Shown piece after piece: positions 54,615 to 61,154 of a stretch of DNA of 64,000 nt. The translations under genes and the position numbers were made by a program. The DNA comes from an uncultured Alphaproteobacteria bacterium (GTDB lineage Bacteria > Pseudomonadota > Alphaproteobacteria > Geminicoccales > Geminicoccaceae), in NCBI GenBank assembly GCA_937995535.1, contig CALKJU010000005.1:62001-126000 (forward strand), read 5' to 3'. Within the stretch, counting starts at the first letter, position 1. Every line of letters starts with the position of its first letter. The notes under the pieces were generated by a model. That model was not told where the DNA came from. It saw nothing but the letters and a program-made list of their open reading frames with translations, and did no database searches.

Positions 54615-55136
54615 ATGCGCACACTTACGATTGCCGGCGCCCTCGGCGCCGCGCTTCTCGCCGCAACCGCCCTGGCCCAGACGCCCGAGCCGACGCCGAA
54701 GCCCGGGCCGATGGGCATGATGCAGCACCACGGCGACAAGCCCAATCCCGGTCCGATGGGTCCTGGGATGATGGGGCCCGGAATGATGGGTCCCGGAATG
54801 ATGCAGGGCATGCCGCCCGGCCCCGGCGCGATGGCGCCGGGCATGATGTCCGACGGCATGGGCATGGGCCGCGGTCCGACCGATCCGGTGGTGGCCGCCT
54901 TCGAGGCGATCAACCGTCGCATGCACCGCGACATGATGCCGGCCGAGGGCGACAGCGCCGACGTCGCCTTCGTCAAGGGCATGATCCCGCACCATCAGGG
55001 CGCCATCGACATGGCCAGGGTGGTGCTGGGCTTCGGCAGCGACCCGGAGATCCGCAAGCTCGCCGAGGCGATCATCGCCGCCCAGGAGCAGGAGATCGCG
55101 CAGATGCGCGCCTGGCTCGAGCGGCAGCCCAAGTAG
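54615..55136 (+). CDS. Met-rich DUF305 periplasmic protein (CopM-like)
   Basis: 173 residues from ATG 54615 (GGAG upstream). A signal peptide (1-21) precedes a Met/Gly/Pro segment (31-84) with repeated G-P-G-M-M units, then a DUF305 domain with [11 protein letters not shown] (123-133). DUF305 proteins of this build bind copper, silver or iron in the periplasm. Copper ATPase and CsoR genes are 4 kb away. Confidence 0.85.
54758..54802 (+). repeat. Tandem GPGMM-coding repeat in the DUF305 gene
   Basis: Three 15-bp units near GGTCCTGGGATGATG encode G-P-G-M-M three times in a row. The near-identical wording makes slippage plausible. Confidence 0.7.
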
Positions 55137-55181: not shown

Positions 55182-55748
55182 TCAGGCATGTTCCGCCGCA
55201 CGTTTGCGGCCGGTGATCATCGCCCGCACGAGGTTCTCGCCGTGGGCGATGCTGCCGAGCAGCACGCCCAGGACGTGCAGGCCGACGAGCAGCAGCGTCG
55301 CGTTCGCGATGGCCTCATGCAGCTCCTCGAGCCAGTCGCCACCGGGACGGGCATCGAGTGCCAGCCAGCCGGTGACGCCGGTGACCGCCAGCATGACGAG
55401 GAGCGCCACGACCATCAGCCCGCCCGCCGGGTTGTGGCCGAGATAGCGGCGGGCCCGACCGCTACCGAGGTCGCGCAGATAGGCGAGCGCCGCGCGCGGC
55501 CCGCGGACGAAATCCGTGAACCGCGCATGCTGGGGCCCGACCACCCCCCAGATCACCCGAAAGGCGACGAGCCCCAGCACGACGTAGCCGGCCGCTTCGT
55601 GCAGCCACATCACGTCCTCGCTGAACCAGGCGGTGAAGAAGGCGACGGCCAGGGACCAGTGGAACAGCCGGACCAGTGGATCCCAGACCGGGACCTCGGC
55701 CGGGCGCAAGCTGCGCCCGGCCGGCTCCATGAGCGTCGCGTCGCTCAC
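55182..55748 (-). CDS. Cytochrome b561-type di-haem membrane protein
   Basis: 188 residues with four helices. Haem-ligand candidates lie in L-F-H-W-S-L, M-W-L-H-E-A-A-G-Y and E-L-H-E-A-I...G-L-H-V-L-G. The family carries electrons between quinone and periplasmic partners. Its ATG overlaps the stop of the PepSY gene (ATGA), so the two form an operon; the pairing of PepSY with cytochrome b is common. Confidence 0.88.
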   Translation of the reverse strand: MSDATLMEPAGRSLRPAEVPVWDPLVRLFHWSLAVAFFTAWFSEDVMWLHEAAGYVVLGLVAFRVIWGVVGPQHARFTDFVRGPRAALAYLRDLGSGRARRYLGHNPAGGLMVVALLVMLAVTGVTGWLALDARPGGDWLEELHEAIANATLLLVGLHVLGVLLGSIAHGENLVRAMITGRKRAAEHA

Positions 55749-56023
55749 GACTTGCTCTTCATCTTGACCAGCTCACCCGTCGCCGGATCGAAATAGGCCT
55801 CGACCGGCCTGCCGTCCTTGAGCCCCTTGATCTCCCAGCAGCCATCGTCCTCCTTGATTCCGCGGACCTCGAAGCCCTGGCTCTCCGCCTTGGCCTTCAT
55901 CGCCTCCAGGCTGAGCCACTGCTCGCGCGGGTAGCTCTTGCAGTCGTCGCTGGCCACTGCCGGCAGCGTGGCGCCGACGGTCAGGATGGCGGCAGCACCG
56001 AGAAGCATGGTAGGCAGACGCAT
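55745..56023 (-). CDS. PepSY-domain periplasmic protein
   Basis: 92 residues with a signal peptide ending A-V-A-S and a PepSY fold (L-S-L-E-A-M-K-A-K-A-E-S-Q-G-F-E-V, then W-E-I-K-G-L-K-D-G-R-P-V-E-A-Y-F-D-P-A-T-G). One Cys pair (C-K...D-G-C-W). Function of this short form is unclear; it is the first gene of the PepSY-cytochrome b561 operon and diverges from the second PepSY gene. Confidence 0.82.
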   Translation of the reverse strand: MRLPTMLLGAAAILTVGATLPAVASDDCKSYPREQWLSLEAMKAKAESQGFEVRGIKEDDGCWEIKGLKDGRPVEAYFDPATGELVKMKSKS

Positions 56024-56090
56024 GGTCGTCTCCGGTTACGGTTCGCGCACGGACGCCATGCCCGTGCAACGCGGTCATAGGCGAGCCGCC

Positions 56091-56129
56091 CTGAGCCGAG
56101 CCTGAAGGCGCCGTTCAGCCAGGGTTCAG
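56091..56129. promoter_or_regulatory. Symmetric CTGAR/TTCAG four-site array (likely response-regulator operator)
   Basis: CTGAG (56091-56095), CTGAA (56102-56106), TTCAG (56114-56118), TTCAG (56125-56129): two direct repeats 11 bp apart arranged as mirror images about nt 56110. Spacing of one helical turn is typical of OmpR-type binding. It lies between the divergent PepSY genes, and the plus-strand operon encodes the regulator. Confidence 0.6.
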
Positions 56130-56156
56130 CGGCCGCGGCGACAATGCGCGATCACG

Positions 56157-56462
56157 ATGCGCCCGTGGCCTCTGCTCCTGGTTTCCCTGCTGCTGCCGGT
56201 GCCGGCCGGTGCCGACAGCGGCCATGACCGGGCGCTGGCCGCGCGCCGTGCCGGCGAGGTCGTTGCGCTCGACCGCATCCTGACGACGGTGGCGGCGGTC
56301 GTGCCCGGCACGGTGCTCGAGGTCGAGCTCAAGGAGCGCAAGGGTCGCTACGTCTACGAGCTGGAGATCCTGACCCCCGAGGGTCTGCTGGTCGAGGTCA
56401 AGGTCGATGCGCACGATCAGCGGATCCTGAAGACCGAGACGGAGCGGCGGAAGCGCGACTGA
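56157..56462 (+). CDS. PepSY-domain protein preceding a two-component system
   Basis: 101 residues. A signal peptide (L-L-L-V-S-L-L-L-P-V-P-A-G-A) then a PepSY fold including V-V-P-G-T-V-L-E-V-E-L-K-E-R-K-G-R-Y-V and an acidic/basic C-term. It ends 3 bp before the response regulator, so it may be the periplasmic input of this system. Divergent from the other PepSY gene. Confidence 0.85.
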   Translation: MRPWPLLLVSLLLPVPAGADSGHDRALAARRAGEVVALDRILTTVAAVVPGTVLEVELKERKGRYVYELEILTPEGLLVEVKVDAHDQRILKTETERRKRD

Positions 56463-56465
56463 GGC

Positions 56466-57128
56466 ATGCGGGTGCTGGTCGTCGAGGACGAGCCGCGGAT
56501 CGCGGCGGCGCTGGCCGAGGCCCTGGAGGGCGCCGGCTACGCGGTGGACCGCGCGGCCGACGGCGAGCAGGCCGAGTTCCTGGGCGCGACGGAGCCTTAC
56601 GACGCGATCGTCCTCGACCTCGGGCTGCCACGCCTCGACGGCATGTCGGTGCTGCGCCGCTGGCGAGCCGCCGGGATCACGACGCCGGTCCTCATTCTGA
56701 CCGCGCGCGGGAGCTGGCGCGAGCGCGTCGAGGGCATCGACGCCGGCGCCGACGACTACCTCGTCAAGCCGTTCGCGATGGAGGAGCTGGTCGCCCGGGT
56801 GCGCGCCCTGCTCCGGCGTGCCGCGGGCCGCGCCTCGCCGGTGCTGCGCCACGGCGCCCTCGAGCTCGACACGCGCAACGCGCGCCTGACGCTCGACGGT
56901 GCCCCGGTGCCGCTCACCGCGCTGGAATACCGCATCCTCGCCTTCCTCATGCACCATGCCGACCGGGTCGTGTCGCAGCACGAGCTCACCGAACATGTCT
57001 ACGCGCAGGACTTCGAGCGCGATTCCAACACCATCGAGGTCCTGATCGGACGGCTGCGGCGCAAGCTCGGCCGCGAGCGCATCGTCACCATCCGCGGTCT
57101 CGGCTATCGGCTGGGCGCGCCTTCGTGA
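56466..57128 (+). CDS. OmpR/PhoB-family response regulator
   Basis: 220 residues. Receiver domain with E-D-E near the start, phosphoacceptor Asp51 (I-V-L-D-L-G-L-P) and Lys101 in D-Y-L-V-K-P-F, then a winged helix (I-E-V-L-I-G-R-L-R-R-K-L...G-Y-R-L). Stop overlaps the kinase gene (4 bp). Probably binds the symmetric array 340 bp upstream. Confidence 0.94.
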   Translation: MRVLVVEDEPRIAAALAEALEGAGYAVDRAADGEQAEFLGATEPYDAIVLDLGLPRLDGMSVLRRWRAAGITTPVLILTARGSWRERVEGIDAGADDYLVKPFAMEELVARVRALLRRAAGRASPVLRHGALELDTRNARLTLDGAPVPLTALEYRILAFLMHHADRVVSQHELTEHVYAQDFERDSNTIEVLIGRLRRKLGRERIVTIRGLGYRLGAPS

Positions 57129-58483
57129 ACCCTTCGGGCTCGCTGCGCGGCCGTCTCCTGCTCGGCGGTGGCCTGTGGATCGCGGCGGCCCTGCTCGTCA
57201 CCTGGCTCGCCCTCGGCGCCCTGTTCCGCGCCCACGAGGTGGCGCAGCACGAGGCCGAGCTGCGCCGGGTGCTCGACCAGCTCACCGCGGGACTGGCGGT
57301 CGACGCCGACGGGCTGCGGCTCACCCGCGAGCCGGCGGACGCGCGGTTCGAGCGCGCCTATGGCGGCCGCTACTGGCAGGTCGCCGCCGGCGGCGTCACG
57401 TTGCGCTCGCGCTCGCTGTGGGACCAGGAGCTACCCGCGGCGAGCGCTCGGCCGCTCGGCGCGATCGGCGTGACACTGGTCGAGGTGCCGGGGCTCGGCC
57501 TGCTGCGGCAGCTCTCGCGCACGGTCGCCTTCGCCGGGGCCACCGAGGAGCCGATCGAGGTCGCCGTGGCGATGCCCGAGGCCGAGATCGACGCGGTCGC
57601 CCGCCGCTTCAACGGATTGACGGCTATCGCGCTCGTGCTCCTCGGAGCCGTGCTGCTGGTGGCGGCACTGGTCCAGGTCGAGCTCGGCCTGCGCCCGCTG
57701 GCCCGCCTGCGCCGCGAGGTCGCACGGATCCGCACCGGCGAGGCGCCAAGCCTGCCGGCGGCGCAGCCGGCCGAGATAGGCCCACTCGTCGAGGAGCTGA
57801 ACCTGCTGCTCGGCGAGAACGCCGCCCTGGTCGAGCGCAGCCGCCGCCGTGCCGCCGATCTCGCCCACGGGCTGCAGACCTCCCTGCAGGTGGTGGCGAT
57901 CGAGGCGGCCAAGCTCGGCAACGAGGCCACGGCGACGATCACGGCCGAGGTGGCACGGATGCGCGACGTCGTGGCCCGCGAGCTTGCCCGCGCCCGGACC
58001 GGCGGGCCGCGGTCGGGGCGCGCGGAACCGACCGACGTCGCCGCTGTCGCCGGACAGGTCGCGCGCGCGATCCGCGTGCTCGCCGCCGACCGCGGCGTGT
58101 CCATCACGACGCAGGTCGATCCGGCGCACCGCTTCGTGGGCGACGCCGCGGACCTCGCCGAGATCCTCGGCAACCTCCTGGAGAACGCCGCCAAGTGGGC
58201 CAAGCGCCAGGTCCGCCTCGCGAGCGGTGTCGAGGACGGCCGGCTGGTGGTGCTCGTCGAGGACGATGGTCCGGGCCTCGCGCCGGAGCGTCGTGAGGAG
58301 GCGTTCGAACGCGGCGTCCGGCTCGACGAGCGTCGTCCCGGTAGCGGGCTCGGCCTCGCCATCACCCGCGACCTCGTCGCCGCCTATGGCGGCACGGTCA
58401 CGCTCGGCACCGCCGCGCTCGGCGGGCTTCAGGTTCGTGTCGAGCTGCCGCTCGCGACCTCACCCCTCGCGGCGCGCCAATAG
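57125..58483 (+). CDS. Sensor histidine kinase (EnvZ/PhoQ-like)
   Basis: 452 residues, two helices (about 10-33 and 165-185) around a periplasmic domain of about 130 residues, HAMP-like linker, DHp with His248 in D-L-A-H-G-L-Q-T-S-L, and a HATPase (N-L-L-E-N-A-A-K, D-D-G-P-G-L-A, G-S-G-L-G-L-A-I). The usual acid after the His is replaced by Gly. Convergent with and overlapping csoR by 24 bp. Confidence 0.92.
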   Translation: MNPSGSLRGRLLLGGGLWIAAALLVTWLALGALFRAHEVAQHEAELRRVLDQLTAGLAVDADGLRLTREPADARFERAYGGRYWQVAAGGVTLRSRSLWDQELPAASARPLGAIGVTLVEVPGLGLLRQLSRTVAFAGATEEPIEVAVAMPEAEIDAVARRFNGLTAIALVLLGAVLLVAALVQVELGLRPLARLRREVARIRTGEAPSLPAAQPAEIGPLVEELNLLLGENAALVERSRRRAADLAHGLQTSLQVVAIEAAKLGNEATATITAEVARMRDVVARELARARTGGPRSGRAEPTDVAAVAGQVARAIRVLAADRGVSITTQVDPAHRFVGDAADLAEILGNLLENAAKWAKRQVRLASGVEDGRLVVLVEDDGPGLAPERREEAFERGVRLDERRPGSGLGLAITRDLVAAYGGTVTLGTAALGGLQVRVELPLATSPLAARQ

Positions 58484-58735
58484 GTCCAAGAGCTCCTGTA
58501 CTTTCTGCCGCTGCTCGGCGGCGTCGCCGCTGGCGATCGCGTGCTCGACGCAGTGCGCGACATGGTCGCCCAGCACCGCGTCCTCGACCCGCCGCAGCGC
58601 CGCACGGACGGCCCGAAGCTGGGTCAGGATGTCGATGCAGTAGCGGTCCTCGGCGACCATCCGGGCGATCCCGCGCACCTGGCCCTCGATCCGCCCGAGC
58701 CGCTGCGCGCAGGCCCGTTTCGTCGCGTCTTGCAT
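58460..58735 (-). CDS. csoR: CsoR-type copper-sensing repressor
   Basis: 91 residues from ATG 58735. Cys33, His58 and Cys62 have the exact spacing of the Cu(I) ligands of M. tuberculosis CsoR (36, 61, 65). DUF156 fold with R-L-G-R-I-E-G-Q-V-R-G. It represses the divergent copper ATPase and probably itself through the operator between them. Confidence 0.92.
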   Translation of the reverse strand: MQDATKRACAQRLGRIEGQVRGIARMVAEDRYCIDILTQLRAVRAALRRVEDAVLGDHVAHCVEHAIASGDAAEQRQKVQELLDLLARREG

Positions 58736-58738
58736 GGC

Positions 58739-58766
58739 TTGATACCCTACCCTGCTAGGGTATATG
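58739..58766 (+). promoter_or_regulatory. Promoter of the copper ATPase overlapping a CsoR operator
   Basis: TTGATA (58739-58744) and TATATG (58761-58766), 16 bp apart. The inverted repeat ATACCCTA-N6-TAGGGTAT (58742-58763) fills the spacer, so repressor binding would block polymerase. Pattern resembles known CsoR boxes (TACCC...GGGTA). Confidence 0.75.
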
Positions 58767-58799
58767 GGAGCGATCGAGCTACGACGGCAAGTCCAACCG

Positions 58800-61154
58800 A
58801 TGGACGACCACCCGAAAGCCCACGCCTGCTGCCATGGGCATGCCGCACCTGCCGCGGCCACGGCGACCATGAAGGATCCCGTCTGCGGGATGGCGGTCGA
58901 TCCACGGACCAGCAGGTACCGGCACGAGCACGGCGGCGTCACCTACCATTTCTGCAACCCGCGCTGCCGCGAACGGTTCATCGCCGATCCGCGACGCTAC
59001 CTGGAGCCGGCGCAGGTCCCATCGCCGGGCTCGGTTCCCGCCGGCACCACCTACACCTGCCCGATGCACCCCGACGTCCGCCAGATCGGACCGGGAAGCT
59101 GCCCGATCTGTGGCATGGCACTCGAGCCGCTCGAGGTCGGCGCCGCGACCGGACCCGACCCCGAGCTGATCGACATGAGGCGCCGGCTGTGGCTCGGCGC
59201 GACGCTCACCCTGCCGGTGCTGGTGCTGGAGATGGGTGGCCATCTCACCGGCCTCCATCAAGCGCTCGGCCAGCAGCTCTCGAACTGGCTCCAGCTCGCG
59301 CTTGCGACGCCGGTCGTGCTCTGGGCCGGGTGGCCGTTCTTCGTCCGCGGCTGGCGGTCCGTGGTCAGCCGCAACCTCAACATGTTCACGCTGATCGCCC
59401 TCGGCGTCGGCGTGGCCTGGGCCTACAGCCTCGTCGCCACCGCGCTGCCCGCGGCGTTCCCGCCGGGCTTTCGCGGGCCCGACGGCAGCGTCGCGGTCTA
59501 TTTCGAGGCGGCGGCCGTCATCACCGTGCTCGTACTGCTGGGCCAGGTGCTCGAGCTGCGGGCGCGCGAGCAGACCGGTAGCGCCATCCGCGCCCTGCTC
59601 GACCTCGCCCCCAAGACGGCGATCCGGGTCCGCGAGGACGGCGGCGACGAGGAGGTGCCGGTCGACGCGATTCGGGTCGGCGATCGGCTGCGCGTCCGCC
59701 CGGGCGACCGTGTGCCGGTCGACGGCGAAGTCGTCGAGGGCCGCAGCGCCGTCGACGAGTCGATGCTCACCGGCGAACCGCTGCCGGTCGAGAAGGTCGC
59801 GGGCGCGAGGGTAATCGGCGGCACCCTCAACCAGCGTGGCAGCTTTGTCATGCGCGCGGCCCGTGTCGGCAAGGAGACGATGCTCGCCCGGATCGTGCAG
59901 ATGGTGGCCGAGGCGCAGCGCTCGCGCGCGCCGGTCCAGCGCCTCGCCGACCGCGTCGCCGGCTGGTTCGTCCCGGTCGTGGTGGTGATCGCGGCCATGG
60001 CGTTCGTCGCCTGGGCGGTCTGGGGTCCGAGCCCGTCCCTGTCCTACGCGCTGATCGCCGCCGTCTCGGTGCTGATCATCGCCTGCCCCTGCGCGCTCGG
60101 GCTGGCCACGCCGATGTCGATCATGGTCGGCGTCGGTCGCGGTGCCCAGCTGGGCGTGCTGATCAAGAACGCCGAGGCGCTCGAGCGGCTGGAGCGGGTC
60201 GACACGCTGGTGGTCGACAAGACCGGCACGCTGACCCGGGGCCGGCCGGAGGTGACTGCCGTCGTATCGCTCGGCGTGGCGGACGAGCACGAGATCCTGC
60301 GCCTCGCCGCGGCCCTCGAGCGCCCCAGCGAGCATCCGCTGGCCGCGGCCGTCCTGGCTGCGGCCCATGCGCGCGGTCTCGCGCCGCCCACCGCCGCCGG
60401 CTTCGAGTCACAGACCGGCAGGGGCGTGCTGGGGACGGTCGAGGGCCGCCGCGTCGCCCTGGGCAACGCCGCGCTGATGCGGGCGGTTGGTGCGGAGCCC
60501 GCCGCCGCGGCGGAGCGCGCCGAGACGCTCCGCCGCGACGGGGCGACGGTGCTCCACCTCGCCGTCGACGGGCACCTGCTCGGCCTGCTCGCCGTCGCCG
60601 ATCCGATCAAGCCGACCACCCCGGCGGCACTGGCGGCCCTCCGCGCCGAAGGCGTGCGGATCGTCATGCTGACCGGCGACAACCGCACCACGGCCGAGGC
60701 CGTCGCGCGCCGGCTCGGCATCGAGGCGGTCGAGGCCGAGGTGCTGCCGGAGCACAAGCGCGCCGTCGTCGAGCGACTGCGCGGCGCGGGGCACGTCGTC
60801 GCGATGGCGGGCGACGGCGTGAACGATGCCCCGGCGCTGGCTGCGGCCGATGTCGGCATCGCCATGGGCAGCGGCACGGAAGTGGCGATCGAGAGCGCCG
60901 GGGTCACGCTGGTCAAGGGCGATCTCGGCGGGATCGTCCGCGCCCGCCGGCTGAGCCGGCTGACGATGCGCAACATCCGGCAGAACCTGTTCTTCGCCTT
61001 CGTCTACAACGCCGCCGGCGTGCCGATCGCGGCGGGCGTGCTCTACCCGTTCCTCGGCGTCCTGCTGAGCCCGATCGTCGCCGCCGCGGCGATGTCCTTG
61101 AGCTCGGTCTCGGTGATCGGCAACGCGCTTCGGCTGCGGCGCTTGACCCTCTGA
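58800..61154 (+). CDS. copA: Copper-translocating P1B-type ATPase with YHS and heavy-metal-binding N-domain
   Basis: 784 residues from ATG 58800; ATG 58764 sits in the promoter and is excluded. N-terminus is His/Cys-rich (H-A-C-C-H-G-H), then a YHS domain (25-70, D-P-V-C-G-M...F-C-N-P-R-C) and a metal-binding domain (84-112, T-C-P-M-H-P...C-P-I-C-G-M) in place of classical MXCXXC HMA domains. Core: C-P-C-A-L-G, D-K-T-G-T-L-T, T-G-E-P, G-D-G-V-N-D-A. Exports Cu(I) across the inner membrane; regulation by CsoR is inferred from the operator. Confidence 0.93.

Follow-up and report, generated by a model that had tools for sequence, protein, structure and literature searches.

A 39-bp array of four half-sites, lying between two divergent operons of an uncultured member of the Geminicoccaceae, is most probably a bidirectional operator of an autoregulated system made up of a PepSY protein, a response regulator (RR) and a histidine kinase (HK), from which two outward-facing dimers would activate both operons in the class II manner. 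We put the probability of this reading at about 0.8. Within the window (the whole 64,000-nucleotide stretch that was analyzed), the array occupies 56091-56129 and, read directly from the sequence, is CTGAG-N6-CTGAA-N7-TTCAG-N6-TTCAG, centered at 56110, with spacers of 6, 7 and 6 bp and half-site periods of 11, 12 and 11 bp. The leftward pair, on the minus strand, consists of an outer half-site at 56091-56095 (CTGAG, or CTCAG on the minus strand, one mismatch from TTCAG) and an inner one at 56102-56106 (CTGAA, minus strand TTCAG). A central spacer of 7 bp (56107..56113, no strand) separates it from the rightward, plus-strand pair, with TTCAG at 56114-56118 (inner) and 56125-56129 (outer). Tandem half-sites spaced by about 11 bp are the arrangement of class II operators for OmpR/PhoB-type regulators. 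A preliminary description of this DNA had placed the four pentamers, their spacers and their center exactly; the interval that it gave for them, 56024-56465, was too wide, also spanning the whole rightward PepSY gene. It had also named the genes on both sides correctly: PepSY_2 and cytochrome b561 leftward, and PepSY, OmpR-type RR and HK rightward.

The leftward operon, on the minus strand, begins with a gene for a small exported PepSY_2 protein (55745..56023; PF13670, Pfam E = 9.3e-24), which overlaps by 4 bp the start of a gene for a cytochrome b561-like membrane protein (55182..55748; Ni_hydr_CYTB, PF01292, Pfam E = 4.7e-25). The rightward operon, on the plus strand, encodes a small exported PepSY protein (56157..56462; Pfam PepSY E = 1.3e-11), an OmpR/PhoB-type response regulator identified with Pfam (56466..57128), which is the proposed binder of the array, and a sensor histidine kinase (57125..58483). 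The kinase was assigned to the SK1 type from its sequence, a motif survey and the published SK1 definition (PMC2909971). Its H-box is DLAHGLQTSL, and it carries the periplasmic SK1 motifs as GGRYWQ and RSRSLWD (variants of SGVYWQ and RSRSLWD); the survey found RSRSLWD in 45 of 83 relatives. With the gene for an exported PepSY protein immediately preceding those for RR and HK, the segment at 56157-58483 is, as judged from sequence, a PepSY-RR-HK module of the SK1/Orf1, DbfQRS and BqsPQRS kind, in which the PepSY gene takes the Orf1/DbfQ/BqsQ position and has a predicted near-leaderless start. Metal-related genes flank the two operons at 54615-55136, 58460-58942 and 58764-61154, encoding a DUF305 protein rich in Met, a metal-sensitive repressor of the CsoR/RcnR type and a P-type ATPase that carries YHS and heavy-metal-binding domains. 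Within the flanks examined, the relatives' loci showed no such DUF305, CsoR-like or P-type ATPase neighbors, and copper as the signal is for this reason kept only as a lead.

A search of the window for TTCAG-N6-TTCAG with at most one mismatch returned two matches, both of them pairs of the array, against 0.75 expected; one pair alone is therefore unremarkable. The preliminary description had proposed a scan of the genome for such pairs. This yielded two perfect ones, of which one belongs to the array and the other (G000:C20, L005) overlaps the end of an open reading frame, is not at a promoter and was dropped as a second operator. By inference, a single pair would arise by chance about once in a genome of this size and composition, and these two pairs are what can be said for regarding the array as an accident, or as the by-product of an inverted repeat such as a terminator-like hairpin, with no regulatory role. 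The complete layout is another matter. A gene-blind search with a strict four-site pattern of 16 fixed bases matched nine of 398 genomes of the phylum, and the reversed control gave one match; five of the nine, including that in the window, adjoin this same regulator family. The four-site array is far beyond chance.

The geometry of the array is conserved in relatives. Loci with orthologues of the regulator were gathered from named genomes and from the window's family, and 432 arrangements (converging, diverging or direct half-sites, spacers of 2-10, gaps of 0-15) were compared in the DNA upstream of 95 orthologous regulators. The inverted N6/N7/N6 arrangement ranked first, with 34 of the 95 loci at 17 or more matches out of 20, against 2 for the runner-up, in a set of loci selected by similarity to the window's regulator and not phylogenetically independent. 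When the half-site variants TTCAG, GTCAG and TTCAT were allowed, both pairs were present in 56 loci, 41 of them non-redundant. Column information in these 41 arrays averaged 1.48 bits in the half-sites versus 0.37 in the spacers. The central gap, measured by locating both pairs without assuming a distance, measures 7 bp in 48 loci and 6 bp in two; one further locus has 18 bp and another 25 bp. The footprint covers alphaproteobacteria (Rhizobium, Ciceribacter), betaproteobacteria (Azoarcus, Polaromonas, Alcaligenes) and gammaproteobacteria (Thiorhodococcus, Thiocystis); the Enterovibrio/Grimontia relatives (L068, L075, L078, L083) yielded no four-site array. Relatives that keep the gene order thus support the preliminary proposal that one regulator, the 56466 protein, acts on both transcripts, as they keep the geometry, the half-sites and the central gap, while the sequence of the spacers, the central one included, is not conserved. 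Spacing that is kept while spacer sequence drifts points to a constraint imposed by protein binding. Found in three classes and accompanied by a fixed offset to the -10 elements, it makes an array without regulatory role so improbable as to be negligible.

Both sides of the array lead into predicted promoters. A predicted -10 element, TATGAC, lies on the minus strand at 56074..56079, 11 bp beyond the outer minus half-site; it keeps TA at its first two positions and ends in C where T is expected. Rightward, the predicted -10 element GACAAT lies on the plus strand at 56140..56145, 10 bp past the outer plus half-site; L018, L023, L025 and L045 have similar hexamers (CACAAT, CAGAAT) at the same position. 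With offsets counted from the end of the outer half-site, a leftward -10-like xAnnnT occurs at offset 11 in 78% of the 41 non-redundant arrays (next best offset, 7%); rightward, it occurs in 39% at offset 11 and in 59% over offsets 10-12, and other offsets are mostly at or below 10%. No -10-like element appears on the minus side of loci that lack the minus pair. The pairs cover the -35 region, and the promoters have no conserved -35 element of their own. A downstream half-site about 10-11 bp upstream of the -10 element, as found on both sides, is the spacing of class II activation by OmpR/PhoB-type regulators. Members of this family can also repress, and dimers overlapping the -35 region, which the pairs cover, might shut off both promoters, or activate one and repress the other. 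We regard this as improbable, because each -10 element lies at the distance typical of class II activators and neither promoter has a conserved -35 of its own, and because the related BqsR and DbfQRS systems are activated by their regulator. Activation of both promoters remains the preferred reading.

The rightward promoter also predicts an unusual transcript. In 26 of the 41 non-redundant loci an in-frame ATG or GTG of the PepSY gene lies 22-25 nt past the outer half-site, compared with at most 7 loci (mean 3) for other 4-nt windows, and the same is true of 15 of the 20 loci that have the rightward pair only. Since the -10 element spans offsets 11-16, a start codon at 22-25 falls at the expected +1. 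The PepSY-RR-HK mRNA is accordingly placed, as a prediction from these positions, as leaderless in most relatives; in the window the PepSY ATG is at offset 27, for a predicted leader of about 5 bases.

The two halves of the array differ in their distribution. Almost every PepSY-RR-HK operon is preceded by the rightward pair. The minus pair was present in 46 loci with and 10 loci without a divergent redox gene, and absent from 3 loci with and 16 without one (Fisher p = 3.5e-7, uncorrected for phylogeny). The leftward pair is thus retained at loci that have a divergent redox operon and has mostly disappeared from those that have none. That operon takes several forms: PepSY_2 with b561 (the window, Rhizobium and others); DUF1924/SHP with a diheme cytochrome c and b561 (Polaromonas, Hydrogenophaga, Azoarcus, Limnohabitans); SHP with a diheme cytochrome and a ferric-reductase-like protein (L029, L034); and an operon with b561 first (L008, L012, L015, L022). 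An SHP gene is present in relatives such as L019, L029 and L045; the SHP profile (DUF1924, PF09086) gave no match in the window's genome, which is 93.6% complete, and none in the control genomes either. Among the ten minus-pair loci without a recognized redox gene, a divergent gene of another kind, in most cases for an exported protein, is present in at least six, and in the three loci that have a redox gene and lack the minus pair, no such pair could be scored. In L050, L054, L062 and L065 the gene that the leftward pair faces codes for an exported protein with long repeats rich in Asp, Ser and Gly; in L062 and L065 this gene sits between the array and the PepSY_2-b561 operon.

We propose that the phosphorylated 56466 regulator would bind the array as a back-to-back pair of head-to-tail dimers, with all half-sites on one face of the helix and each dimer pointing outward. 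Each dimer, its outer half-site 10-11 bp upstream of a -10 element, would recruit RNA polymerase in the class II manner. The rightward dimer would thereby activate the PepSY-RR-HK operon, giving positive autoregulation from a transcript with little or no leader, and the leftward dimer would activate the PepSY_2-cytochrome b561 operon. One sensor system probably switches on itself together with a set of membrane electron-transfer proteins, as mirror-image sites are kept at fixed spacing in alpha-, beta- and gammaproteobacteria. A bolder version, to which we give slightly under even odds, is that the fixed 7-bp gap reflects contact between the dimers, which would bind as one cooperative tetramer, so that both operons fire as an obligate unit and the sensor mRNA is leaderless. 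From the model follow two specific mechanistic predictions, an invariant gap and a leaderless start.

Several known systems resemble parts of this arrangement. BqsR/CarR of P. aeruginosa activates from TTAAG-N6-TTAAG sites whose downstream pentamer overlaps the -35 (PMC4682146), and in the bqsPQRS operon PepSY genes lie upstream of RR and HK (PMC12666569). The window shares the pentamer repeat, the 6-bp spacer, a downstream pentamer next to the -35 and PepSY coding sequence before RR and HK. The third base of the pentamer differs at the same spacing, and clusters of four pentamers at some BqsR promoters are direct repeats serving one promoter, whereas the TTCAG pairs of the window are mirror images serving two. 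The ExxE iron motif of BqsS was not apparent when the N-terminal periplasmic helix region of the window kinase was read, and Fe(II) as the signal by analogy to BqsS is for that reason not supported. In Vibrio cholerae the orthologous DbfQRS system has the same PepSY-RR-HK operon order; there the PepSY protein binds and controls the kinase, and the operon is positively autoregulated (PMC12714742). Unlike in the window, no divergent cytochrome operon is described for DbfQRS. The nearest literature match to the half-site pair is the candidate FeuP motif of Sinorhizobium meliloti, TTCA-N7-TTCA, which has the same 11-bp period and is reported as single pairs upstream of feuN and of further genes that depend on FeuP (PMC3616915); feuN lies upstream of feuPQ, and the small periplasmic FeuN restrains the kinase (PMC3616915, PMC12486126).

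The closest precedent for the gene arrangement is that of Meyer et al. (2010), who assigned the regulation of SHP operons to the SK1 kinase, an RR and Orf1, gave the SK1 motifs, and suggested a divergent promoter and functional coupling in Rhodospirillum, where homologous small exported proteins start both operons (PMC2909971). The SK1 motifs in the kinase and a cytochrome b in the partner operon are common to that cluster and the window; the window's partner operon differs in holding only PepSY_2 and b561, with neither SHP nor a diheme cytochrome. The available portion of that paper identifies no operator. A literature search, mostly outside subscription papers, found no description of a mirror-image four-site operator, a fixed gap or a leaderless start, and searches on TTCAG with response regulators, PepSY with cytochrome b561, and leaderless PepSY operons likewise found no prior description. 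The parts are of known kinds; a fixed four-site operator common to both operons was not found described. The array thus gives the shared divergent promoter suggested in 2010 the form of a testable model at the level of bases, and provides a concrete, predicted operator for a widespread sensor system, by which the regulon can be located in any relative. In many proteobacteria the operator also ties this system to heme proteins of the membrane and periplasm (cytochrome b561, SHP, diheme cytochromes, ferric-reductase-like proteins).

In the window's own genome, a scan for TTCAG-N6-TTCAG plus a -10 element found nothing convincing beyond this site. Within two mismatches it returned only the leftward side of the array, the rightward -10 being one base nearer, and the reversed control gave more matches than the pattern itself, so no wider regulon is proposed in this genome. 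A second PepSY_2-b561 operon (G000:C91:4946-5188, L127) has no TTCAG array upstream. With no other credible site in the scan and this second operon lacking one, the results suggest that the site is unique in the genome and its regulon local.

Both domains of the 56466 protein have P. aeruginosa CarR/BqsR as their best match among solved structures; the protein reaches no NCBIfam equivalog cut-off, its nearest models being PmrA and QseB. We infer that this regulator binds the array. GTCAG half-sites mark a single clade of relatives and TTCAG the remainder, and recognition-helix residues 189/193 covary with the first base of the half-site (Fisher p about 1e-17 and below). The change of half-site and of residues 189/193 is a single switch on the tree, and the covariation, set aside as independent proof of the binder, is therefore only suggestive. 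It is very unlikely, a shade more so than repression, that the main binder is instead another regulator of the PmrA/QseB group and the array a generic OmpR-family operator: most arrays studied travel with the 56466 RR family, their half-site variants run with its clades, and no array precedes the second PepSY_2-b561 operon, which is far from the 56466 gene. What speaks for such a binder is three other matches of the four-site pattern (L121, L122, L123), very similar arrays that immediately precede genes for EptA phosphoethanolamine transferases, two at loci that include parts of another OmpR-type two-component system. These parts beside EptA-linked arrays suggest that a PmrA-like regulator may use the same operator layout at those loci.
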